Shown here piece after piece: positions 4,109 to 16,882 of a stretch of DNA of 20,977 nt. Where the stretch lies: positions 1 through 20,977 of the IMG/VR virus record IMGVR_UViG_3300049595_001567. One strand, 5' to 3'. Made by a program: the position numbers and the translations under genes. Numbering within the stretch: position 1 is the stretch's first letter; every line of letters begins with the position of its first letter. The stretch comes from a virus. Below the pieces are notes generated by a model. It ran no database searches. It was not told the DNA's origin and saw only the letters and a list, made by a program, of their open reading frames with translations.

Positions 4109-4459
4109 CTAAGCCTCAACAGGTTCCCAGGTGAAAGTTTCCTCATTCAAAACCCAGTCAGCAAACTTATCCGTAGGCGAAGGCTTAGGTGCGATGAAAG
4201 CATCAAGCGCCTCGTCATAGGTGTAACCGATACCAGCATAATTACCTCGAAGCGCTTTGGACTGGTCAGCAGAAGGCTCCCGATTACCGTCAGCGGCTGT
4301 GGTGTAGTGGACACCGCCCATAGTGTTGTAGGAGGTCTTCAGCCAAGTGCCACCCAGGTTTTGTTCCAGGAAGGCATAGCCCTCATCCGGCTCATCATTA
4401 TTGCCTACAGTGACCCGAAGGACAACACCGTTATCATCAATCTCAGCCCATGAACTCAT
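4109..4459 (-). CDS. Tail-fibre-associated protein (SWAEID family)
   Basis: The 116-residue product begins MSSWAEIDDNGVVLRVTVGN and contains NLGGTWLKTSYNTMGGVHY, LRGNYAGIGYTYDEALDAFI and a C-terminal SWVLNEET-like end (DWVLNEETFTWEP). From memory, this combination is found in small proteins next to tail-fibre genes in cyanophages and other aquatic phages; no exact function is known. ATG 4459 overlaps the stop of the glycine-rich fibre gene (ATGA), so the two are translated together, which suggests a fibre-tip, chaperone or host-attachment role. Confidence 0.65.
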   Translation of the reverse strand: MSSWAEIDDNGVVLRVTVGNNDEPDEGYAFLEQNLGGTWLKTSYNTMGGVHYTTAADGNREPSADQSKALRGNYAGIGYTYDEALDAFIAPKPSPTDKFADWVLNEETFTWEPVEA

Positions 4460-5499
4460 AGTGGATACCTCACAATCACAATTCCGGAACCTCCAGCGCG
4501 AGTGTCCGCCTCACTTGCCGCGCCACCAGCCCCAACGGTAACAGCATGATCCCCAACCGCAATAGTGGCAAAACCATACAAGAGGCCACCGGCACCTCCA
4601 CCACCACCGGCAACAGAAGAGTCAGCCGTACCCTGACCACCACCACCACCCCCACCGGTGTTAGTCGTGCCAGCTACGGCCGTAAATCCGCTACCGCCGC
4701 CTCGACCTCCGCCGCCTATTCCACCGAAACCTGGCTCTTTAGCTGTGCTCCCACGAATACCACCGCCACCACCACCAGCGTAATAAGTCATTGTGCCAGA
4801 AATATCGAACTGTCTGCCAGCGCCACCATCACCTGCCCGTTGGGGCGTAGCCGCAGCGCGAGGAGTGCCGCCACTTAGACCGATAGCAGCAGCACCACCA
4901 CCACCACCACCGGATCGGTCAGTTATAAGGGAGCCTGCAGAGCGCCCACCGTCGTTACCCTGCCCAGCAGTTCCAGTACCACCCGAGCCCGTATCTGAGC
5001 CACCACCACCACCAGAACCGCCGGTGTTTCCGGCAACATTCAAATAATCTCCACCAGCCCCACCGCCCGTAGCCGTTCCCACAGTAGCCAAAATTGAATT
5101 AGTGCCATCAGTTCCCTTTAGGTTGCCGGAGCCACCACCACCGCCAGCAACAATCAAATACTCAATCTCGCCACCAGCAGTCACCGACACAGTTCCATTG
5201 CTAGTGAAAGTGTGAACCCCATACTCCACACCCTGAACAGTTACTGTCCCGAAAGTTCCACCCGTAGCCACAACAGAACCAGGGCTTGTAGAAAACTCCT
5301 GCCACTGCGAACCGGAATAGTAGGTGAGCTGGTCGGAGTCTTTTAAAAAAGCAAACTGGCCCTCAACCGCAGTCCCAATCGCTGAACCACGCGCAGCAGT
5401 CCCAGCAAACACCAGAACACCCTGCATCAGATAATCGTTGATGTCATCCTCGTCAAGAACCTCACCAGCGACAAACTCTTTGTAACCGCCTGCAGCCAT
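4456..5499 (-). CDS. Glycine-rich tail fibre / receptor-binding protein
   Basis: The 347-residue protein has an N-terminal module (residues 1-70) shared with the next upstream gene (ending EGQFAFLKDSDQLTYYSG), a short beta linker (GTVTVQGVEYGVHTFTSNGT), then YLIVAGGGGG and about 200 residues rich in GGGG-type runs, ending SGIVIVRYPL. The glycine-rich domain with an IVIVRY end is characteristic of phage tail-fibre tips, where polyglycine helices form a rigid receptor-binding tip. It follows the hub gene and precedes the small fibre-associated protein. ATG 5499 directly follows the upstream stop. Confidence 0.8.
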   Translation of the reverse strand: MAAGGYKEFVAGEVLDEDDINDYLMQGVLVFAGTAARGSAIGTAVEGQFAFLKDSDQLTYYSGSQWQEFSTSPGSVVATGGTFGTVTVQGVEYGVHTFTSNGTVSVTAGGEIEYLIVAGGGGGSGNLKGTDGTNSILATVGTATGGGAGGDYLNVAGNTGGSGGGGGSDTGSGGTGTAGQGNDGGRSAGSLITDRSGGGGGGAAAIGLSGGTPRAAATPQRAGDGGAGRQFDISGTMTYYAGGGGGGIRGSTAKEPGFGGIGGGGRGGGSGFTAVAGTTNTGGGGGGGQGTADSSVAGGGGGAGGLLYGFATIAVGDHAVTVGAGGAASEADTRAGGSGIVIVRYPL

Positions 5500-9264: not shown

Positions 9265-9683
9265 CTACCGCCGGCCCCGCTTACCACTCTGGGCCTGAGA
9301 ACGCGCCACAATGTAACGGCTCATAGTCCAAAGCATCCGAGGTTCCTGCTCCATTAGGACACTGGGAGCAATCCCGGTTTCAACAGCGAGAGCAGCGATC
9401 TCCCAATGAAGGCTCGAATCACCGAGCCCGACTATTTTTTTGCGGAAGCCTCAGAAACCATCGAAACAGACTCAACCCACTTGTCAAACTCGTCAGTGGT
9501 TTGCGCTGTGCGCTTCAGAGCGTGCCACGCCAGGAAGAACATATGCGTCAAGCGCACTTCTTTTTCCAGGCGGGCAACACTCAAATCGAAGCGTGCCTCG
9601 AACGCAATGAGATCTGCAGCAATCGCTGAACACTCAACCGTGGTTTCGTCAATGTAGGTTACTCGTAGGTTTATTGGATTCAT
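9265..9683 (-). CDS. Tail assembly chaperone, long form made by -1 frameshift
   Basis: The long product joins the 83-residue upstream reading frame to a 56-residue extension in the -1 frame, giving 139 residues. After the A7 slippery site the -1 frame continues IVGLGDSSLHWEIAALAVETG and ends GKRGRR before TAG 9265. The extension contains IAPSVLMEQEPRMLWTM, matching the usual second-frame pattern of chaperones (a short helix, xxPxxhh, then PRMLxTM). These gpG/gpGT-type proteins bind the tape measure and recruit tail tube subunits; the short:long ratio is set by the frameshift. The extension has no start codon of its own in a sensible place, so frameshifting is its only likely route. Confidence 0.8.
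9432..9683 (-). CDS. Tail assembly chaperone, short form
   Basis: The 83-residue product of normal reading ends ...VSEASAKK at TAG 9432. It lies directly after the major tail protein gene (2 bases between stop and start) and before the tape measure, the conserved position for the gpG-like chaperone. The helical content (AADLIAFEARFDLSVARLEKE, MFFLAWHALKRT) and aromatic pattern (FLAWHALKRTG-like) agree with the family. It contains the slippery heptamer at its 3' end. Ribosome binding is weak (AGGGG about 17 bases upstream), suggesting coupling to the tail tube gene. Confidence 0.8.
   Translation of the reverse strand: MNPINLRVTYIDETTVECSAIAADLIAFEARFDLSVARLEKEVRLTHMFFLAWHALKRTAQTTDEFDKWVESVSMVSEASAKK
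9435..9441 (-). other. A7 slippery site for -1 ribosomal frameshift
   Basis: On the minus strand the sequence reads GCA AAA AAA TAG in the zero frame. A AAA AAA fits the X-XXY-YYZ slippery rule, with the zero-frame stop right after it. Shifting back one base reads ATA GTC GGG and stays open for 57 codons. Confidence 0.8.
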
Positions 9684-10109: not shown

Positions 10110-10511
10110 TTATAGTGCGAACACGGTCACGGCAAAATCTGCCGATAAATATGTGATATCTCCAATTGTAACGGAGGTCACGTTAGTCATCTCAGAAACC
10201 CTCGTGTCAAAAGCGTTCCCGCCCAGAGTGCGATCTATCTCAATGGCTGTCTTCAACGAACCCGAACCAGTCGAAATGAGTGCATCCAAGTTTTTCTGCG
10301 CCTGCACTGTCGCAATGCGCCCGAAAATCACTGTCACCACGAAACTGTATTCGGTCAACCCTTTAGCGAAAGCACTGTTGTAGGTGACTGAACCCAACTG
10401 CACAACAGCAGCGGGCATCATCGGATCGTCAGGAATCTCCGCATAAGTGCGAAGGCCCGTAATCGTGTTCATGTTGGTTGCGAGGCCAGCCCGCATCAGG
10501 CTAATGCTCAC
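10110..10511 (-). CDS. Tail terminator / tail completion protein
   Basis: The 133-residue protein starts at GTG 10511, which overlaps the upstream TGA (GTGA). It has the pattern of small tail terminator proteins: an N-terminal helix (SLMRAGLATNMNTITGLRTY), a central segment with PDDPMMPAAVVQLGSV, a long strand (YSFVVTVIFGRI), a helix (ATVQAQKNLDALIS) and C-terminal strands (LSADFAVTVFAL). Such proteins cap the tail tube and join it to the head. Position between the connector and tube genes agrees. Confidence 0.7.
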   Translation of the reverse strand: MSISLMRAGLATNMNTITGLRTYAEIPDDPMMPAAVVQLGSVTYNSAFAKGLTEYSFVVTVIFGRIATVQAQKNLDALISTGSGSLKTAIEIDRTLGGNAFDTRVSEMTNVTSVTIGDITYLSADFAVTVFAL

Positions 10512-11128
10512 GCGAAACGAATCTTCCTGTAAGGCTGAATCAGCCGTTCCACATCAGGGTCAAGCCTGCCGATTCTAACCACTCCGCTGTCGCTAAATCC
10601 GAGCACCCCCGTTGGAGATTCGTACCGCTTGTAGGCCCTAAGTGAGCTGAGGATGGTTGCCTGTTTGATAGCGGAAGGAATCGAAGCAAACCCGAACACA
10701 CCCGTCACCTGCACGCTCGCCTGATTACTGTTCACGTTCCTTGGCTCATACACCGGCCACAGATAGTCACCGATCGCCCGAATCCTGGTCGCTGGTGTGG
10801 AAATTCCACCAGCCAAACCATTCAACGGCTCCAATTGGTAATCCTTAGCAGCCCAAGTGATATCAAACGTGCCGTTGCCGGTGCTGTCAGACTTCAACGT
10901 GGTCACCGAAATGATGTCATCCGTTTCCACCAAATAAATGTCCTGCGGAATATACACACGAGCCACAGCTGTTGCACCCGTGCTGAAAAACACGCGCTCA
11001 GTGTAAGCATCAATGTCGCGAGAGCTGGACTCAATCGCCATCTCCAACAACCCGTCATCAATCGTGTCGGTGATGCGGGCTGCAGCCTTCACCTCGGAAA
11101 GTGTCGCGTACCCATTCACAATCGCCAA
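10508..11128 (-). CDS. Head-tail connector (gp6-like adaptor)
   Basis: The 206-residue protein starts at TTG 11128 with GGAGG 6 bases upstream. The N-terminus (YATLSEVKAAARITDTIDDGLLEMAIESSSRDIDAYTERVF) is the helical core of gp6/gp15-type adaptor proteins that bind the portal ring. A beta insertion follows, then a C-terminal helix (IPSAIKQATILSSLRAYKRYESP) and a tail ending RLIQPYRKIRFA. It forms part of the neck. It is the first classic structural gene after the sugar-modification cassette, 21 bases from its last gene, so it is probably on the same transcript. Confidence 0.8.
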   Translation of the reverse strand: MAIVNGYATLSEVKAAARITDTIDDGLLEMAIESSSRDIDAYTERVFFSTGATAVARVYIPQDIYLVETDDIISVTTLKSDSTGNGTFDITWAAKDYQLEPLNGLAGGISTPATRIRAIGDYLWPVYEPRNVNSNQASVQVTGVFGFASIPSAIKQATILSSLRAYKRYESPTGVLGFSDSGVVRIGRLDPDVERLIQPYRKIRFA

Positions 11129-11149: not shown

Positions 11150-11818
11150 CTACCGCCCGGCCTCCCACCCGTTCAGTCTGCGCCGTTCCACATCCCAAAA
11201 CCCTGCGCTGAAATCCGCTCGTGCCACCTTGTCGTAATACAGGGCCGCGTTCGTGGGAAAAGTGCGAGCGTTCTTCTCAAACAAATCTGAGTCGGAATTT
11301 ATTGTCGAACTGTTGTCATGAATCATCGGCACCTCGATTGACCGGATCGTAACCCCAGCCTGCTCCGCACGAAACGTATAATCGTTGTCCTCACAGAATG
11401 CTGGAAAGAAACGCTCATCAAACAAACCCACACGCCTGACAGCCTCATAGCCGAGCGCAAACGTCTGCCAGTTAGGGAACATCTTAGACAGGGTTATCTC
11501 GTCTGTACGGGCCTCTGAGAGCCTCTGAAGGGCACCAGGCTCGAAACGCACGTCATTCGAGGCAAAAAACCAGCGTTCAGCATACGGAAACGACTTTATC
11601 CCCAAATTCCATGACGCTGCCACCCCCAAGTTAGCTGGCATCGGCAGGTAGGTGGTGTGCTCCACACACGCCGGCACATCAATCGCCATATCCTCGAGCA
11701 CGGAGCTGGCCCCGTTGTCAATGATAAGCAAATGTTCTACCGGGTAGTCAATGCTCGACACCATGCGATCCAGTAGGTCGTAACGGTTTAGCACCGGCAC
11801 AATCAGGTTCTCCAACAC
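11150..11818 (-). CDS. Family 2 glycosyltransferase
   Basis: A GT-A fold transferase. After an initial strand (NLIVPVLNRYDLL) come LLIIDNG (about 30-36) with the nucleotide-binding Asp, the NLGVAASWNLG motif (about 63-73), the SNDV metal-site region (about 87-90) and a late EDNDYTFRAEQAG motif (about 143-155) holding the likely catalytic base. It would move a sugar from a nucleotide-sugar onto an acceptor. The start is taken as GTG 11818 because GAGGTGG lies about 5 bases upstream; the longer reading from 11908 overlaps the methyltransferase gene by 80 bases and adds sequence outside the fold. The product is 222 residues. Donor and acceptor are unknown. Confidence 0.82.
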   Translation of the reverse strand: MLENLIVPVLNRYDLLDRMVSSIDYPVEHLLIIDNGASSVLEDMAIDVPACVEHTTYLPMPANLGVAASWNLGIKSFPYAERWFFASNDVRFEPGALQRLSEARTDEITLSKMFPNWQTFALGYEAVRRVGLFDERFFPAFCEDNDYTFRAEQAGVTIRSIEVPMIHDNSSTINSDSDLFEKNARTFPTNAALYYDKVARADFSAGFWDVERRRLNGWEAGR

Positions 11819-11828
11819 AGAAACCACC

Positions 11829-12368
11829 TCACTGTTTGCGAATACCCAGGAACAATGTTTCTTCCTTGTAATAGCTCCCCGTAGGCATTGTGTATTGCTC
11901 CAACTCAAACCCTGCAGCCGTCACCGCATCCGCAATGACCTTATGAGGCACCGCAATATCAGGAACATCAAGCTCCTCGGTGTAACCAATCTGCTCACCG
12001 TCACCATCGGGAGTGAACACAACGATCGCAATGCGTTCCTGCGCTGAAGCCACCGCGTTGTCAAGCACAAGCTTCCAGTCCCGGTTGTGCTCAATCACCC
12101 CTCGGATCCACAAGCCCGGAGTTTCCGAACGGTACACACGCAGGTCGGCCACAATGTCAGCGTGCTCCGAAGCCGTGCCATCAATGCCAACATAAGGGCC
12201 GTCATGCACTGTTTTGAACCAGCCACGACCACAACCCCAGTCCTCTACAGCTAAACCCTTCAGGAAGTCAGCGCCAATCTTGTAAGTAACCTTGTCCCCG
12301 TATTCTGCGAGCGTGGAGTCGTTGCGATACCAGGCACCCCAACGGTCAAGGTAAGAATCTTTAGTCAT
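11829..12368 (-). CDS. SAM-dependent methyltransferase (second of two)
   Basis: The 179-residue protein has a class I methyltransferase core: EDWGCGRGW (about 42-50) for SAM binding, YVGIDG (about 59-64) as the acidic second strand, and GVIEHNRDWKLVLDNAV (about 90-106), equivalent to the LEH motif of ubiE-like enzymes. The C-terminal half (GFELEQYTMPTGSYYKEETLFLGI) completes the sheet. ATG 12368 overlaps the stop of the first methyltransferase gene (ATGA). Placement between sugar transferases suggests methylation of a sugar or glycan. The substrate is not visible from sequence, and protein or small-molecule methylation remains possible. Confidence 0.75.
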   Translation of the reverse strand: MTKDSYLDRWGAWYRNDSTLAEYGDKVTYKIGADFLKGLAVEDWGCGRGWFKTVHDGPYVGIDGTASEHADIVADLRVYRSETPGLWIRGVIEHNRDWKLVLDNAVASAQERIAIVVFTPDGDGEQIGYTEELDVPDIAVPHKVIADAVTAAGFELEQYTMPTGSYYKEETLFLGIRKQ

Positions 12369-12889
12369 AACGTGTTTTCTTTCGGCTCAAAAACGAATAT
12401 GTGTGACAGCTCCTCTGGCTGGTCTTCCAAGTGTAGAACCTCACACCCGGCAAACAATGACAACACATCATCCACCGTGAAATCGTGCAAATGATACGGA
12501 TTGAAATGCTTGGTTGGTCTTGTCGGGACAGACACGATCACCAACCGTTTCGCCTTCACCAGTTGCGCTGCTAAATGTTGCGGGTTTACTAAATGCTCCA
12601 ACGTTTCAAAACACACAGACACATCCCACCCGAACCCAGGCACCCACTCGTCAAGGTTCACCTCGGCATGAAACTTTCCCAACCCGGCGAACTCCTGCGC
12701 CGGCACAACCTTATCCACGCCCACATACTTCACCGGCACAATGTCGGTCATAACTTTCGCCCCATACCCGACACCGCACGCGACATCCAACACACGCTCA
12801 CCCGGCTCCAACCAACCCGCAGCGAACTCGTAACGGTACACATGGCCCGGCTGGTCAGAAATCTGCTCAGAGGTTATACGCTCAAACAT
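12365..12889 (-). CDS. SAM-dependent methyltransferase (first of two)
   Basis: The 174-residue protein is a clear class I methyltransferase of the Methyltransf_11/25 kind: RVLDVACGVGYG (about 32-43) for SAM, KYVGVD (about 54-59), and FETLEHL (about 94-100). The N-terminus (MFERITSEQISDQPGHVYRYEFAAGWL) resembles methyltransferases of polysaccharide clusters. ATG 12889 overlaps the preceding gene by 8 bases and its stop overlaps the next methyltransferase. No DNA-methylase motif (such as NPPY) is present, so a DNA target is unlikely. O-methylation of a glycan added by the neighbouring transferases is the favoured inference. Confidence 0.82.
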   Translation of the reverse strand: MFERITSEQISDQPGHVYRYEFAAGWLEPGERVLDVACGVGYGAKVMTDIVPVKYVGVDKVVPAQEFAGLGKFHAEVNLDEWVPGFGWDVSVCFETLEHLVNPQHLAAQLVKAKRLVIVSVPTRPTKHFNPYHLHDFTVDDVLSLFAGCEVLHLEDQPEELSHIFVFEPKENTL

Positions 12890-13541
12890 CTTTCGGGTGC
12901 TCCCGCCAAGTCAGGTAAGGGTTATGAAACTCGTGTGCAGGAAACACACCAAAGTTCGGTTCCAACTTCCACACCAAATACGGGAACGACACCTGGTCTT
13001 GAATCGACCAACGCAGATTCTCCTCATGCCAAGCGTGACCGAAGCTTCTAGCCTTGTCACTGTTACGCCACACAATCGCTCCGCAAGCCCACAACCCGAA
13101 ACCCTCCGGCATCCCCTCAGCCCGGTAATGCTCAGTCTGTCCCCTAATAGGCCAATCCTTATATTTCGGCCAGTCCTGACAATAAGCGGCCTCCTTGTAA
13201 AGGTCATCCCTATGCCATAAATCCGGGTGCTCCCACACAACAAAGTCATGATCGGCCAGGCTGTCCTCACAGAAGCCCCTGAAGTCTGGTGACACCACCT
13301 CAAACGCAGCGTCAATCCACACCACGATCTCCGCCTTCACCAAATCAAACGGAAGCATCTTCGGAAGTTTCGCCGCCAACCTCGGATGATGCACACTAGG
13401 CAACACCACCACACGCCAACCGTCAGCCACCAGGTCAGGGTCATCCGTGAAACACACAGCATCATCAAACCCGTGGTCGGCAGGTAACGGTCGCACCGGC
13501 TCAAAATCACCGTACAACGCTGTGACTAAGACGGTTCCCAA
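12882..13541 (-). CDS. TOD1/MUCI70-like (DUF616-type) glycosyltransferase-like protein
   Basis: Around 219 residues. The N-terminus reads VLVTALYGDF, then VCFTDDPDLV (about 29-38), HPRLAAKLPKMLPFDL (about 52-67) and IVVWIDAAFEV (about 72-82). The order FTDD, then HPR-AK-PK, then WIDA is what I know from the TOD1/MUCI70-type glycosyltransferase-like domain, a GT-A-like fold with WIDA near the sugar-nucleotide site. The C-terminal part (EGFGLWACGAIVWRN, IQDQVSFPYLVWKL) fits acceptor-side residues. The start is uncertain: TTG 13541 with GGGGGA 4-5 bases upstream is preferred; TTG 13553 is the alternative. It overlaps the upstream gene by 16 bases. Confidence 0.7.
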   Translation of the reverse strand: MGTVLVTALYGDFEPVRPLPADHGFDDAVCFTDDPDLVADGWRVVVLPSVHHPRLAAKLPKMLPFDLVKAEIVVWIDAAFEVVSPDFRGFCEDSLADHDFVVWEHPDLWHRDDLYKEAAYCQDWPKYKDWPIRGQTEHYRAEGMPEGFGLWACGAIVWRNSDKARSFGHAWHEENLRWSIQDQVSFPYLVWKLEPNFGVFPAHEFHNPYLTWREHPKDV

Positions 13542-14137
13542 AAGTTCCCCCAATACGAATAGCCTTCACGCATAATCTTTACCGAAGGTTTCCCCAAACC
13601 AACCCAGCCCTCAGCCTGAAACCGATTCTCTAAACCCACCGGCTCGAGGGTGCGAACATAATCGGATCGCGCCCACCAAAAATTGCCTGCAAAAAACGAT
13701 TCATGATCAACGTGCTCCGGCTCCCACGACTTCAACCAAAACGGGCCCGCACACTGAAACTTCTCCAACGCATAAACACACTCACGCCACCGTGTCACAA
13801 CATCATGAGTCATCGAAACCCGCCACACCCTAGCCAGCTCACTCTGCGACCAAGCCCCTTTAGTGTGCGCGTACAACACCACCCCATCATCGGTTTGGCA
13901 GAAGTCACGGAGTTTATTCAACGTCACCTGCTCCCAACCCTCAACAGCCTCCACCGTCACATGATGACGTAACGCCCGTTTCACCTTCCGCCGGTTCTCA
14001 CGCGACCCCACCACACCCAAATAAATTCCGTCAAGCTCATCCAGTAAACCTGAAACGCGAAGCTCCTCAAAGTGCTCCGTGGCCGGTGTGAGCCAATCCC
14101 CATCCGCAAACACGTGATAGAAGTGTGACAACCTCAC
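13526..14137 (-). CDS. Probable glycosyltransferase-like protein of uncertain family
   Basis: GTG 14137 overlaps the stop of the upstream GT4 gene (GTGA) and gives a 203-residue protein beginning MRLSHFYHVFADGDW. Its features are LDGIYLGVVGSRENR, EGWEQVTLNKLRDFC, VLYAHTKGAW, WRVSMTHDVVTRWRECV and ESFFAGNFWWARSDYVRTL. The HTKG motif followed later by F-x-G-(N/T)-x-(F/W)-W-x-R recalls rhamnan-synthesis (RgpF-like) and related sugar transferases, where such elements line the active site. That similarity is by eye and distant. Its place between two transferases and the tight overlaps support a sugar-transfer role. Confidence 0.6.
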   Translation of the reverse strand: MRLSHFYHVFADGDWLTPATEHFEELRVSGLLDELDGIYLGVVGSRENRRKVKRALRHHVTVEAVEGWEQVTLNKLRDFCQTDDGVVLYAHTKGAWSQSELARVWRVSMTHDVVTRWRECVYALEKFQCAGPFWLKSWEPEHVDHESFFAGNFWWARSDYVRTLEPVGLENRFQAEGWVGLGKPSVKIMREGYSYWGNFWEPS

Positions 14138-15327
14138 GCAAAATAACCCTTCAGGAACGGCATCCAATAGTCAGACCACACCTTCTCCTCATCGAAGTCG
14201 AGTGCAAACTTTCGTGACACAGCTGAGAAGCCGCGCTCCTTATCCGCCAACACTAGAGCTGACAGCACAGAATCAAGCAGTGGCACTTGGTAGAACGCCT
14301 TCTGTGGTTCATCCCAGAACGGTTGCCCCTCCACCAACCAGCCATCCTCCGCCACCAGGTCGGCTGTGGCAGCCCAACTCGAACCAATCACCCGAGTCCC
14401 ACAAGCCTGAGCCTCAATAGTAGGAACCCCAAACCCTTCCCCATAAGACGGAGCCAACAGAACATCCGCAGCCGAATACAACGCCGCCAACTCTGCCTGC
14501 GAATACCCCACCCGATACTTATCCCGATTAGCGAACGTAATCTTCTCTGGTGGAATCCCACACACCCTAGCCAACAACCCCAAATCAAACCCGCCCACAT
14601 TAGCCGCCGGATCCGCGTGAACATACAAATGAGAATCCGGGTGCGAACGAAGGTGCGCTGAAAACGCCATAAAGTTCACATCGTAAGCCTTCCGATGGAT
14701 AATCCCGTTAGCCTTATTCGCTGCCACCATCGCCACCAAAAACGTGTCATCACTCACACCCAACAGTTCACGGGTCGGCATCATCCCATCCGGCCCCATA
14801 ATCTTCGGAGTCTTAGCAAACACCTTCGTGTTCACAGCGTGAGGAATATAAACGGAATCTATCCCAGCATTATCCAACTGTCGTTTCCCATGCGGGGCCA
14901 TCGCCACCGGGGTCACATTCTCCCGCCGAAGAAACTGGGCAACCCCAGGAGGCAACGTCACATGATCCAACGGCACCCACGAAATAACCGGCAGCTCATC
15001 TTTCCACCCGTTATAAACCCACACATCATAAAGAGTCATGATCGCGTGCTTCAGGTCGGGTGCAGACTGCCGATGAAATTCATGCCACACCGTCAAAACA
15101 TCCTGCGAATAAGGTGCAACACCCTTCGGAAAAACAGGCACAGCACCAAACTCAGTGCGATGCTCCCCAATAGCACCCTCGAGGCCGTAGTTCGACAGCA
15201 CACCAACATTCATGCTGTGACGTTTCATGTAACGCACCAGGAACTCGGCTTGCACCCCGTAGCCCGTTGGAGAGTTTGGATTGTTTGTTGCTAAAGAAAC
15301 AACACCCTTAAGTTTTTCGTAGGCCAT
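14134..15327 (-). CDS. Family 4 (GT-B fold) glycosyltransferase
   Basis: A 397-residue retaining transferase. The C-terminal domain carries the EX7E motif (EGFGVPTIE, about residues 297-305), then AQACGTRVIGS and DGWLVEG; YSAADVLLAPSYGEGFG is typical of GT4 donor-binding halves. The N-terminal half has SPTGYGVQAEFLVRYM, an acceptor-side helix with the Gly-rich start seen in GT4. It is the first gene of the six-gene cassette, after the capsid terminator. ATG 15327 is chosen because TATTAT lies 6 bases upstream and no Shine-Dalgarno is visible; GTG 15333 would add two residues. The GT4 call is secure; the sugar is unknown. Confidence 0.88.
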   Translation of the reverse strand: MAYEKLKGVVSLATNNPNSPTGYGVQAEFLVRYMKRHSMNVGVLSNYGLEGAIGEHRTEFGAVPVFPKGVAPYSQDVLTVWHEFHRQSAPDLKHAIMTLYDVWVYNGWKDELPVISWVPLDHVTLPPGVAQFLRRENVTPVAMAPHGKRQLDNAGIDSVYIPHAVNTKVFAKTPKIMGPDGMMPTRELLGVSDDTFLVAMVAANKANGIIHRKAYDVNFMAFSAHLRSHPDSHLYVHADPAANVGGFDLGLLARVCGIPPEKITFANRDKYRVGYSQAELAALYSAADVLLAPSYGEGFGVPTIEAQACGTRVIGSSWAATADLVAEDGWLVEGQPFWDEPQKAFYQVPLLDSVLSALVLADKERGFSAVSRKFALDFDEEKVWSDYWMPFLKGYFA

Positions 15328-15333
15328 GCCCAC

Positions 15334-15339
15334 ATAATA
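15334..15339 (-). promoter_or_regulatory. Candidate -10 element of the glycan cassette, inside the terminator tail
   Basis: On the minus strand this reads TATTAT, a TANNNT match differing from TATAAT at one position and ending 6 bases before ATG 15327. No Shine-Dalgarno is present, as expected for a leaderless message. Its -35 region would fall in the hairpin that ends the capsid transcript, so terminator and promoter are interleaved. Confidence 0.45.
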
Positions 15340-15342
15340 GCG

Positions 15343-15379
15343 AAAGCCCCCGCCGTGAAACCTACAACACGGCGAGGGC
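15343..15379 (-). terminator. Terminator after the major capsid gene
   Basis: On the minus strand GCCCTCGCCGTG and CACGGCGGGGGC form a 12-bp stem (arms 15368-15379 and 15346-15357) with one T-G wobble and a 10-base loop, followed by TTTCGCTATTAT. The wobble pairs only in the minus-strand RNA, showing the intended direction. It lies 23 bases after the capsid stop. The T run is short. Confidence 0.75.
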
Positions 15380-15401
15380 CTTCAGCCCGTTCTACTTCAG
15401 C

Positions 15402-16538
15402 CTATGGCTGGAGCAAGAACTTGATGTGACTGGCACCGTTAGCGACACCGGCTCCAAGTCTTTGGATATACCTAAACGCGGTGATGTCGTTCTCAAAGAA
15501 CGCCTCGGTGGACGTAGCGAATTGGAGGCCAGTCGTGCTGATTTTCACCGAAGGCCAGTGTCCGAAGAACACTGCCTTGTTACCAGCGCCAATCGAGTCC
15601 ACAGCAGGGTTCTCAAACACTGGGCGACCCAGGATTGTAGAAACACCTTCAGGGCCAACGGGGTCAAGAATGTATGATCCGTTGTTGTCCTTCAGCCTAC
15701 GGATTGCACCGAGGGTAGAAGTGTTGACCATATAGCCCGAACCAGGCAACATTCTGACTAGGCCATTAGCACTAAATTGGAGCGAAATCAGCTCGTCTGC
15801 CGTGATAGCGGTTGCGGTTCCAGCAGTTCCACCGACAGTCGCAACAGCCGTGACAGCTGCGTGGACAAGGGTGTTGATGCGAGTACCGATAGCGTTACCG
15901 GCCTGCTCAACAAGCGTGCTCTCTAGATCGAACCCCACATCAGTTATCAGCTCATTTGCAATCTTCGACACATAGCCATTTTTTGACATCTGAATTAAGA
16001 GTGACGAATAGGTGGCTTCGGACTCACTGAGTGCTGAACCGGCAGCTGTTTCAGAAGCCGTTGGGTACGCAGTGAACACGGGGATACGCAGGTCTTCACC
16101 AGAAGTACGCTGGATTACTTCGCTTGTGGCGAGATAAGGGCCGACAAGACGAGCCAGTGCGTAGATCCGGTCAAGGAACGCTACGGGGACAGTGTTGACA
16201 GAGGGAACCAGTGTGGCACGCTTTTCGAAGTTGAACGTGTGCTCGCGGATTTCACCACGGGCCATAGCACGGAAAATCTCGGCAGTGTCAGTTGGCATTT
16301 CAGTGACAACCTCAAAACCACGCGAAGCAGCAGCGACCTCAGCGGCACGCTCCTCATTCTTAGCGGCAGTTTCGATGCTGCGCTGTGCTGCGACAATATC
16401 GGATTCGATACGGTCAATTTTTTCTAGCTCAGCAGAATCCAGGCCACGACCCTCAGCTTCAGCATCGTCAATAACGGTGCGAATCTGCATGGTCAAGTTA
16501 GCCTTAAGCTCCTGCTGGCGCTTAATAAACTCGGACAT
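15402..16538 (-). CDS. Major capsid protein, HK97 fold
   Basis: The 378-residue protein has an N-terminal coiled-coil delta/scaffold region (residues about 1-75, rich in E, K, A: LKANLTMQIRTVIDDAEAEGRGLDSAELEKIDRIE), a linker, then the HK97-type shell domain: TFNFEKRATLVPSVNTVPVAF, IQRTSGEDLRIPVF, SEATYSSLLIQMSKNGYVSKIANELITD (the E-loop and spine helix region), and LGRPVFENPAVDSIGAGNKAVFFGHW near the C-terminus. The delta domain is probably removed by the S78 protease encoded just upstream, with cleavage before or near the FNFEKRATL segment. AGGAG lies 8 bases before ATG 16538. It is its own transcription unit between two terminators. Confidence 0.93.
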   Translation of the reverse strand: MSEFIKRQQELKANLTMQIRTVIDDAEAEGRGLDSAELEKIDRIESDIVAAQRSIETAAKNEERAAEVAAASRGFEVVTEMPTDTAEIFRAMARGEIREHTFNFEKRATLVPSVNTVPVAFLDRIYALARLVGPYLATSEVIQRTSGEDLRIPVFTAYPTASETAAGSALSESEATYSSLLIQMSKNGYVSKIANELITDVGFDLESTLVEQAGNAIGTRINTLVHAAVTAVATVGGTAGTATAITADELISLQFSANGLVRMLPGSGYMVNTSTLGAIRRLKDNNGSYILDPVGPEGVSTILGRPVFENPAVDSIGAGNKAVFFGHWPSVKISTTGLQFATSTEAFFENDITAFRYIQRLGAGVANGASHIKFLLQP

Positions 16539-16606
16539 TTGTGTTTCTCCTAAATGGAATTGAATAAATAGATCGCAACCGTGCTAACACAGAATTACTC
16601 GCCGTA

Positions 16607-16616
16607 GCGTTAACGC
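16607..16616. other. 10-base palindrome in the capsid leader
   Basis: GCGTTAACGC is a perfect palindrome between the candidate capsid promoter and the ribosome site. GTTAACGC recurs at 16735-16742, at the end of the preceding small ORF. It could be an operator or chance. Confidence 0.3.
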
Positions 16617-16632
16617 ACACCAGCTACCTCTA

Positions 16633-16638
16633 ATTGTA
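16633..16638 (-). promoter_or_regulatory. Candidate promoter of the major capsid gene
   Basis: On the minus strand TACAAT is a good -10, with TTGGAA 19 bases upstream as a possible -35 (a long spacer). The resulting leader would be about 90 bases before ATG 16538. A promoter is expected here because a strong terminator lies directly upstream at 16662-16709. Confidence 0.45.
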
Positions 16639-16661
16639 AACCAGGCCGTGCAACCCGTTCC

Positions 16662-16709
16662 AAAAAGAAAAGCCCCTACCAGGGAAAGGGTGGAATACCT
16701 GGCAGGGGC
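16662..16709 (-). terminator. Strong intrinsic terminator upstream of the capsid gene
   Basis: On the minus strand GCCCCTGCCAGG and CCTGGTAGGGGC form a 12-bp stem (arms 16698-16709 and 16672-16683) with one G-T wobble and a 14-base loop, followed by TTTTCTTTTT. It ends the terminase-portal-protease transcript after the 48-residue ORF. This is the clearest terminator in the window. Confidence 0.88.
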
Positions 16710-16735
16710 AAACCCGTCAACGGCGCTCTAAACTG

Positions 16736-16882
16736 TTAACGCTTTTCGGCAACCGTCATAACGCGGGTTTCTTTAGTCGGCTCGTCATCGAGTCCAACAA
16801 TCCGGCGGGCCAACATTTCAGCCACACCAACATCCTCAACAACATCAAAAAGTAGTGACGCAATCTGCTCAACCGTTGCCAT
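16736..16882 (-). CDS. Small hypothetical protein (48 aa) after the protease
   Basis: ATG 16882 shares a base with the protease stop (TGATG) and the ORF ends at TAA 16736, just before the strong terminator. The peptide, MATVEQIASLLFDVVEDVG followed by VAEMLARRIVGLDDEPTKET and a basic end, is helical and acidic in its first half. It could be a scaffold-like or capsid-assembly helper given its place, but there is no recognised family. The exact overlap and the terminator right after it support a real gene. Confidence 0.6.
   Translation of the reverse strand: MATVEQIASLLFDVVEDVGVAEMLARRIVGLDDEPTKETRVMTVAEKR

Follow-up and report, generated by a model that had tools for sequence, protein, structure and literature searches.

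A modular glycosyltransferase and methyltransferase cassette beside the capsid gene of uncultured, probably actinobacterial phages: a candidate system for virion glycosylation

Results

Gene content and organization of the cassette

The window analysed here, an incomplete virus record of 20,977 bases from IMG/VR, carries on its minus strand, in this order, a terminase large subunit, a portal, a protease, a capsid gene, a block of six genes, a connector, tail genes, an M23 peptidase and a YqaJ recombinase. The six co-directional genes span 11150-15327 (-) and lie between an HK97-type major capsid gene and a head-tail connector gene, a location put forward in the original prediction and borne out by family matches of both flanking products. 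The capsid gene preceding the cassette (15402..16538, (-)) encodes a protein of 378 aa (Phage_capsid PF05065, E 9e-31), which is the presumed acceptor and is 46% identical to the capsid protein of Pontimonas phage phiPsal1; the product of the connector gene following the cassette (10508..11128, (-)) matched Phage_connect_1 (PF05135, E 1e-6) and phrog_442 (E 5e-18). All six reading frames were found where they had been placed, and the tight packing with overlaps or short gaps was confirmed, there being ATGA-type 4-base overlaps at the GT4/RgpF-like and MT1/MT2 junctions, an 8-base overlap at the TOD1/MT1 junction, an overlap of 16 to 28 bases between the RgpF-like and TOD1 genes, depending on the choice of start codon, and a gap of ~1 base between MT2 and GT2. 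Every gene was under purifying selection in comparisons with relatives (dN/dS, 0.06 to 0.22); this selection and the recurrence of the block in related phages indicate that the arrangement is above chance. No membrane segments were predicted in any of the six genes. As the window contains a WhiB gene and phiPsal1 is the nearest isolate, the host is probably an actinobacterium; one contig of bacterial origin that shares this layout carries a Microbacteriaceae label, and this is probably the family of the host.

The first and constant gene of the cassette (14134..15327, (-)) encodes a GT4-type (GT-B) glycosyltransferase (PF13692, E 8e-12; phrog_2170, E 7e-39). The E-x7-E motif of this enzyme is GEGFGVPTIE, with E299/E307 being invariant, and its closest solved relative is chlorovirus B736L (PDB 3oy2; profile match, E 4e-13). 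The last cassette gene in the window (11150 to about 11827, (-)) encodes a GT2-type glycosyltransferase that matched a 'galactosyl transferase' family (phrog_29879, E 7.5e-50) and, weakly, Pfam (1e-3) and has an invariant EDND motif. A TOD1/MUCI70-like glycosyltransferase is encoded at 12882..13541 (-), with a possible start at 13553; a family search with this gene gave TOD1_MUCI70 (PF04765, E 1.4e-9), with a score exceeding the curated cut-off, and phrog_26101 (E 1e-6). The RgpF-like protein (13526..14137, (-)) had no match in Pfam, PHROG or NCBIfam. An AF2 model built from 18 aligned relatives predicted a GT-A fold with confidence (pLDDT 91.6), and Foldseek searches with this model returned GT-A and nucleotidyltransferase folds, the viral homologues (TM about 0.8) including a protein of Synechococcus phage S-SRM01, Klosneuvirus glycosyltransferases and a 638-residue viral protein. 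HTKG and GNFWWA motifs were conserved, and the protein was assigned to an unnamed family of GT-A-fold glycosyltransferases. Of the four glycosyltransferase-like genes originally predicted, GT4, the TOD1-like gene and GT2 were thus recognized by profile, and the RgpF-like gene by its structural model.

Two SAM methyltransferases had also been predicted. MT1 (12365..12889, (-)) is a class I enzyme (Methyltransf_23 PF13489, E 1.8e-11). MT2 (11829..12368, (-)) is a candidate by virtue of a motif I-like WGCGRG...YVGIDG and had no family match in Pfam, PHROG, NCBIfam or PDB; an hhalign comparison with methyltransferases gave a probability of 3.9% over the SAM motif. Homologues of MT2 were present on three contigs in the scan, all at least 92% identical, and the structure model from these three near-identical sequences had a pLDDT of 45. 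The gene has a dN/dS of 0.06. At the level of a guess from its motif, MT2 is probably an SAM methyltransferase.

Recurrence and exchange of the cassette in related phages

The site was surveyed in related phages, in which the block was recurrent and few sites were empty. IMG/VR scans returned at least 600 candidate stretches each for GT4 and GT2, from which the analysis took the best 80 per enzyme. Within these best 80 of at least 600 per scan, GT4 was the next gene after the capsid gene in 125 of the 132 non-redundant loci with both and was no more than two genes away in the remaining 7. As this sample is weighted towards phages close to the query, an independent survey was started from the capsid sequence alone. 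Of the readable loci (about 71, excluding loci that ended too early or were unclear), 64 had GT4 behind the capsid gene, and in seven (L248, L249, L250, L280, L287, L288 and L292) the capsid gene was followed directly by the connector, indicating that loss of the block is possible but rare. A search of 84,980 genomes of bacteria and archaea detected three GT4 relatives, and for at least two of these the gene order was that of the phages.

Phage phiPsal1 (MG835450), which is itself lost and is not discussed in the Pontimonas genome paper (PMC6106888), has the order capsid-GT4-methyltransferase-GT2-neck at the same site. GT4 and GT2 of this phage are 52% and 48% identical, respectively, to those of the window, and the capsid, connector and tail genes are homologous; the RgpF-like and TOD1-like enzymes are absent, and the methyltransferase is of another family and on the opposite strand. 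As in phiPsal1, GT4 lies right behind the HK97-type capsid gene in the window, and GT2 and other sugar enzymes precede the gp6-like connector. In short, the block is a long version of a glycan island that recurs between capsid and neck genes rather than a unique insertion. The shorter form in phiPsal1 shows that the block is not peculiar to this phage, and the capsid-connector site, where phages were supposed normally to have no room for enzymes, is in this lineage the usual enzyme site.

Among the matches listed, 99 loci were complete from capsid to connector and exhibited 28 layouts, including GT4 alone (n = 10), GT4-GT2 (n = 9), GT4-GT2-cytidylyltransferase (n = 15) and GT4-MptE-like-GT2 (n = 14); the layout of the window, GT4-RgpF-TOD1-MT1-MT2-GT2, was the longest of those listed. 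GT2 was the next most constant gene after GT4. The variable genes of the listed matches almost all encode glycosyltransferases, methyltransferases or nucleotide-sugar enzymes, the cargo families comprising cytidylyltransferase (PF01467), MptE-like (PF01973, a weak match), GT17 (PF04724), epimerase (PF01370), RmlD, methyltransferases, GT2 and a 170-aa unknown. As a rule, no transmembrane segments were predicted across these families, and no flippase, polyprenyl-phosphate glycosyltransferase or other membrane protein was found among them. Makers of sugar donors are included in the cargo, in line with a virion glycan.

Comparisons of DNA detected exchanges with a boundary at the start of GT2. Identity of 91% between the window and L008 ended with the RgpF-like gene; the two were wholly different over TOD1-MT1-MT2, with similarity resuming at the GT2 start. 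The sole difference of L006 from the window was the absence of MT2, and the exchanged stretch in L041 extended from the end of GT4 to the start of GT2. Contig 3300036398_001164 had GT4 alone beside the capsid gene (L065) and RgpF-TOD1-MT1-GT2 at its other end, a site corresponding to the position just before the terminase in L199. With the other enzymes placed near the terminase in this phage, the tie to the capsid gene holds for GT4 alone.

Distances between GT4 sequences correlated with those of the capsid (0.52), the connector (0.52) and g10110 (0.54), and in close relatives GT4 identity was kept at 90% while capsid identity was 60 to 63%. As GT4 tracked capsid divergence no more than that of other neighbours, co-divergence was rejected as an indicator that enzyme and substrate are matched, and a private enzyme-capsid pair is disfavoured. 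A check for localized recombination within the capsid gene gave no sign of it.

A conserved hairpin at the capsid-GT4 junction

The gap between the capsid gene and GT4 is filled by a hairpin located after the capsid stop codon (15342..15383, (-); z of -5.5 relative to shuffles), which has a 16-bp stem and the loop UUGUAGGUUU (15358-15367) and had no match in Rfam. Among the matches listed, a hairpin was present at the same place in 92.5% of 161 relatives (z < -2), including those without GT4. A -10-like box, TATTAT, lies 6 nt before the GT4 ATG (15334..15339, (-); TATTAT-GTGGGC-ATG) and is a putative leaderless promoter. The pattern TANNNT-N6/7-start, a signature of leaderless genes in actinobacteria (PMC3160421), followed the hairpin in 52 of 70 non-redundant relatives compared with 4.7% of shuffles; a sigma-70 promoter scan gave no excess over shuffles. 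From these sequence patterns, GT4 seems to have a leaderless-type promoter and its expression seems to be tuned at this junction, with the conserved hairpin possibly ending the capsid message.

The loop of the hairpin is complementary to the starts of two genes. At the 5′ end of GT4 (15317..15325, (-)), GGCCUACGA and UUGUAGGUU can form nine pairs, three of them G-U. The second target, AAACCUACGA (9663..9672, (-)), comprises codons 4 to 7 of a gene for an 83-aa protein (9432-9683) and can form 10 contiguous pairs, one of them G-U. The 83-aa gene sits behind the tail tube gene. On the sense strand of the window, positions 9663-9672 were the best complement of the loop, and the GT4 site was among the strongest by energy. 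The typical loop, UUGUAGGUUG, was complementary to the GT4 5′ end in 44 of 70 loci, a score attained in 5.9% of shuffles; this count was based on the capsid stop codon, as the count from called starts (20%) was too low due to the gene caller sometimes missing GT4 starts.

The target on the tail tube side was anchored by its protein alignment, independently of the loop. Across relatives, 81.7% of cells paired between the loop and the start of the 83-aa gene compared with 76.3 ± 1.2 in shuffles, 25 cells were changed on both sides compared with 10.9, and the covariation score was 0.225 compared with 0.145 (0/500), figures that overstate the certainty because the shuffles keep relatedness in, although several independent paired replacements were visible nonetheless (for example, UCGCAGGUUU/AAACCUGCGA, AGCUAGG/CCUAGCU and GCGUAGG/CCUACGC). 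The signal collapsed when the alignment was slid by one column. The loops of L280 and L287 had perfect or near-perfect complementarity to the beginning of the gene that follows the tail tube gene, indicating that GT4 is not the sole target of the loop. A simple cis pseudoknot for GT4 alone does not account for the hairpin: L280, L287 and L288, which lack GT4, have no GT4 pairing, and another target exists.

Discussion

The conserved hairpin with a loop pairing to two gene starts is the most unusual feature of the site and has the appearance of a previously undescribed RNA-RNA regulatory element. Base pairing of the loop with the gene starts is supported by the compensatory changes; the main alternative, that a shared DNA operator is read by a co-evolving regulator, is opposed by wobble-compatible or compensated changes in the helix core, which speak for pairing. 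From the pairing we infer a regulatory effect: the hairpin of the capsid transcript may act as a built-in antisense RNA whose 8- to 10-nt loop pairs with the GT4 start, as a cis pseudoknot or in trans, and with the distant gene start on the tail tube side, such that the level of capsid message would set the output of glycosyltransferase and tail assembly protein. We regard the case for this proposal as evenly balanced. If confirmed, the pairing would represent a new phage way of tying enzyme and chaperone levels to the capsid message.

The cassette is a real observation, and its interpretation is plausible. The best reading is of a glycan, sometimes methylated, that is built in the cytosol, and we consider it moderately probable that the block is a modular virion glycosylation cassette in the late structural operon, with the capsid protein as the simplest acceptor. 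The original proposal is partly borne out: a virion glycan of several sugars, possibly O-methylated, is the best-supported reading, in view of the tie of GT4 to the capsid gene (132/132 non-redundant loci with both), the soluble enzymes and the makers of sugar donors; the acceptor is a presumed one, and MT2 is a putative contributor. A cytosolic acceptor fits with enzyme families that, as a rule, are without predicted membrane segments. The soluble enzymes would be produced along with the capsid protein. As GT4 is constant and keeps its place beside the capsid gene, it is most likely the enzyme that initiates or anchors the glycan; it would attach the first sugar to a protein of the virion, the capsid protein being the simplest candidate. 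GT2 and the RgpF-like GT-A and TOD1-like enzymes would extend the chain, and MT1, perhaps with MT2, would add an O-methyl cap. Addition of several sugars in sequence is plausible. Exchange of the middle genes between phages would lead to different glycans on related phages, with the swapped genes setting outer sugars and methyl groups, and the surface would probably be varied under selection from host or grazers. Gene content, fixed position, modular swapping, purifying selection and the absence of membrane proteins are observed; which enzyme acts when, on what acceptor, with which sugars and to what benefit is inferred.

Authors working on freshwater actinophages have proposed DNA or the cell wall as targets of phage glycosyltransferases (PMC10202952); both fit less well here than a virion glycan. 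Modification of a glycan on the host surface, such as wall polyrhamnose, for phage exclusion or easier release and with the late-operon site being incidental, is unlikely, though it draws some support from the polyrhamnose-based wall glycans and many glycosyltransferases that Pontimonas is thought to carry (PMC6106888), from the likeness of swappable cargo to wall-glycan variation and from the superinfection exclusion suggested for glycosyltransferases of freshwater actinophages (PMC10202952). Seroconversion of the gtr type, acting on wall or O-antigen, employs a membrane flippase or polyprenyl-linked glycosyltransferase, whereas the cargo of this lineage has, as a rule, no family predicted to be membrane-bound and contains no flippase, polyprenyl-phosphate glycosyltransferase or other membrane protein. 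The link of GT4 to the capsid gene also holds in divergent phages, GT4 has relatives in only three bacterial or archaeal genome contigs, and late expression would presumably leave little time for exclusion. The high turnover, the sharp boundaries and the presence of part of the set upstream of the terminase could alternatively reflect a hotspot for selfish or loosely useful genes, in which sugar enzymes accumulated by history and have mixed targets (tail fibre, capsid or host); the near restriction of the cargo to carbohydrate enzymes, the purifying selection on every gene and the almost invariable retention of GT4 make this still less probable. Glycosylation of hypermodified bases in phage DNA for nuclease protection, a known role of phage glycosyltransferases that was suggested for phages E7 and F5 (PMC10202952), is very improbable, as the complete phiPsal1 annotation has no base hydroxymethylase or other hypermodification gene, the block adjoins the capsid gene in the structural module and cargo genes for cytidylyltransferase, epimerase and RmlD are suited to glycans attached to proteins or polymers.

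If the virion glycan is on the capsid, then a large group of uncultured aquatic actinophages would have variable sugar coats, with the first enzyme fixed and the finishing enzymes swapped, and would provide a comparative system for why a phage decorates its particle and a parallel to the self-made capsid glycans of chloroviruses. The capsid is the likely acceptor by virtue of the position of the cassette and by analogy with mycobacteriophages and chloroviruses. In mycobacteriophages, phage glycosyltransferases are reported to modify the capsid and the tail tube (PMC12619734, PMC12363180), and virion glycosylation is described for Che8, Corndog and Myrna (Freeman et al. 2023, via PMC12619734, PMC12363180 and PMC11256854). 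These are, as here, actinobacterial phages with their own glycosyltransferases, the virion sugar being proven there and predicted here. A tblastn search detected no GT4 homologue at E ≤ 1e-5 in the mycobacteriophages with proven glycosylation, and searches with GT4 and GT2 against 50,697 phage records gave no mycobacteriophage match; in Maravista, an F1 relative of those phages, the glycosyltransferases lie close to the genome's 3′ end (PMC11256854), unlike in the window.

In chloroviruses, the major capsid protein carries an O-methylated glycan made by the viruses' own glycosyltransferases and methyltransferases, with A064R both building and methylating it (PMC9614988). The set of A064R, A061L and B736L (PMC9614988) parallels that of the window in combining virus-encoded glycosyltransferases and methyltransferases. 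B736L, whose own acceptor is uncertain, is similar by profile to the GT4 of the window; the fold of the RgpF-like protein resembles the 638-aa viral protein, which is linked to A064R by shared length alone. Chloroviruses differ from the window phage in being eukaryotic giant viruses with an N-glycan and an unrelated capsid. Sugar enzymes are also found inside the structural modules of Synechococcus phage S-CBS4 (portal-GT-galactosyltransferase-MT), in which, unlike in the window, the site precedes the capsid gene, and of Microcystis phage Mae-JY09 (capsid-GT-epimerase-adaptor). Both belong to other phage lineages, and their glycosyltransferases are only 31 to 33% identical to those of the window.

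Divergence at the capsid gene and the capsid-GT4 junction

The capsid protein (15402-16538) has diverged faster than its neighbours. Comparison of the window with the related loci L041 and L042 gave 60-63% identity for the capsid protein versus 90% for the glycosyltransferase GT4 and 97-99% for the product of the neighbouring gene g10110. A 343-base gap without an obvious gene (16539-16881) precedes the capsid gene, and close relatives retain one of about 325 bases at this site. A conserved hairpin is located 3′ of the capsid gene (15342-15383, minus strand), with a loop complementary both to the start of GT4 (15317-15325, minus strand) and to the start of the small gene behind the tail tube (9663-9672, minus strand); the loop and target pairs exhibited compensatory changes across relatives. 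This small gene (9432-9683, minus strand) is, judged by its position, possibly a tail assembly chaperone gene. Near its start, AACCTAC is present twice, in two reading frames, and the start itself carries a promoter-like TACTGT-N6-ATG.

Cassette and cargo genes in other loci

The RgpF-TOD1-MT1(-MT2)-GT2 set was also detected apart from the capsid gene (L194-L203, e.g., L199 and L202), lying directly upstream of the terminase genes in L199, while in contig 3300036398_001164 GT4 is still at the capsid gene, alone. The commonest cargo gene between capsid and connector encodes a glycerol-3-phosphate or heptose-type cytidylyltransferase (L152, 5251-5676; L008, 9370-9825; and 43 more). An unnamed 170-aa family often adjoins this gene, and the combination suggests a non-hexose decoration. 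The unrelated cyanophages Mae-JY09 (L036) and S-CBS4 (L037) also have glycosyltransferase clusters inside the head module.

Other genes of the window

A glycine-rich 347-aa protein of the tail region (4456-5499, minus strand), for which no Pfam match was found, is possibly a receptor-binding fibre tip. A WhiB-type transcription factor gene (1736-1990) is on the plus strand, opposite to that of the structural genes.
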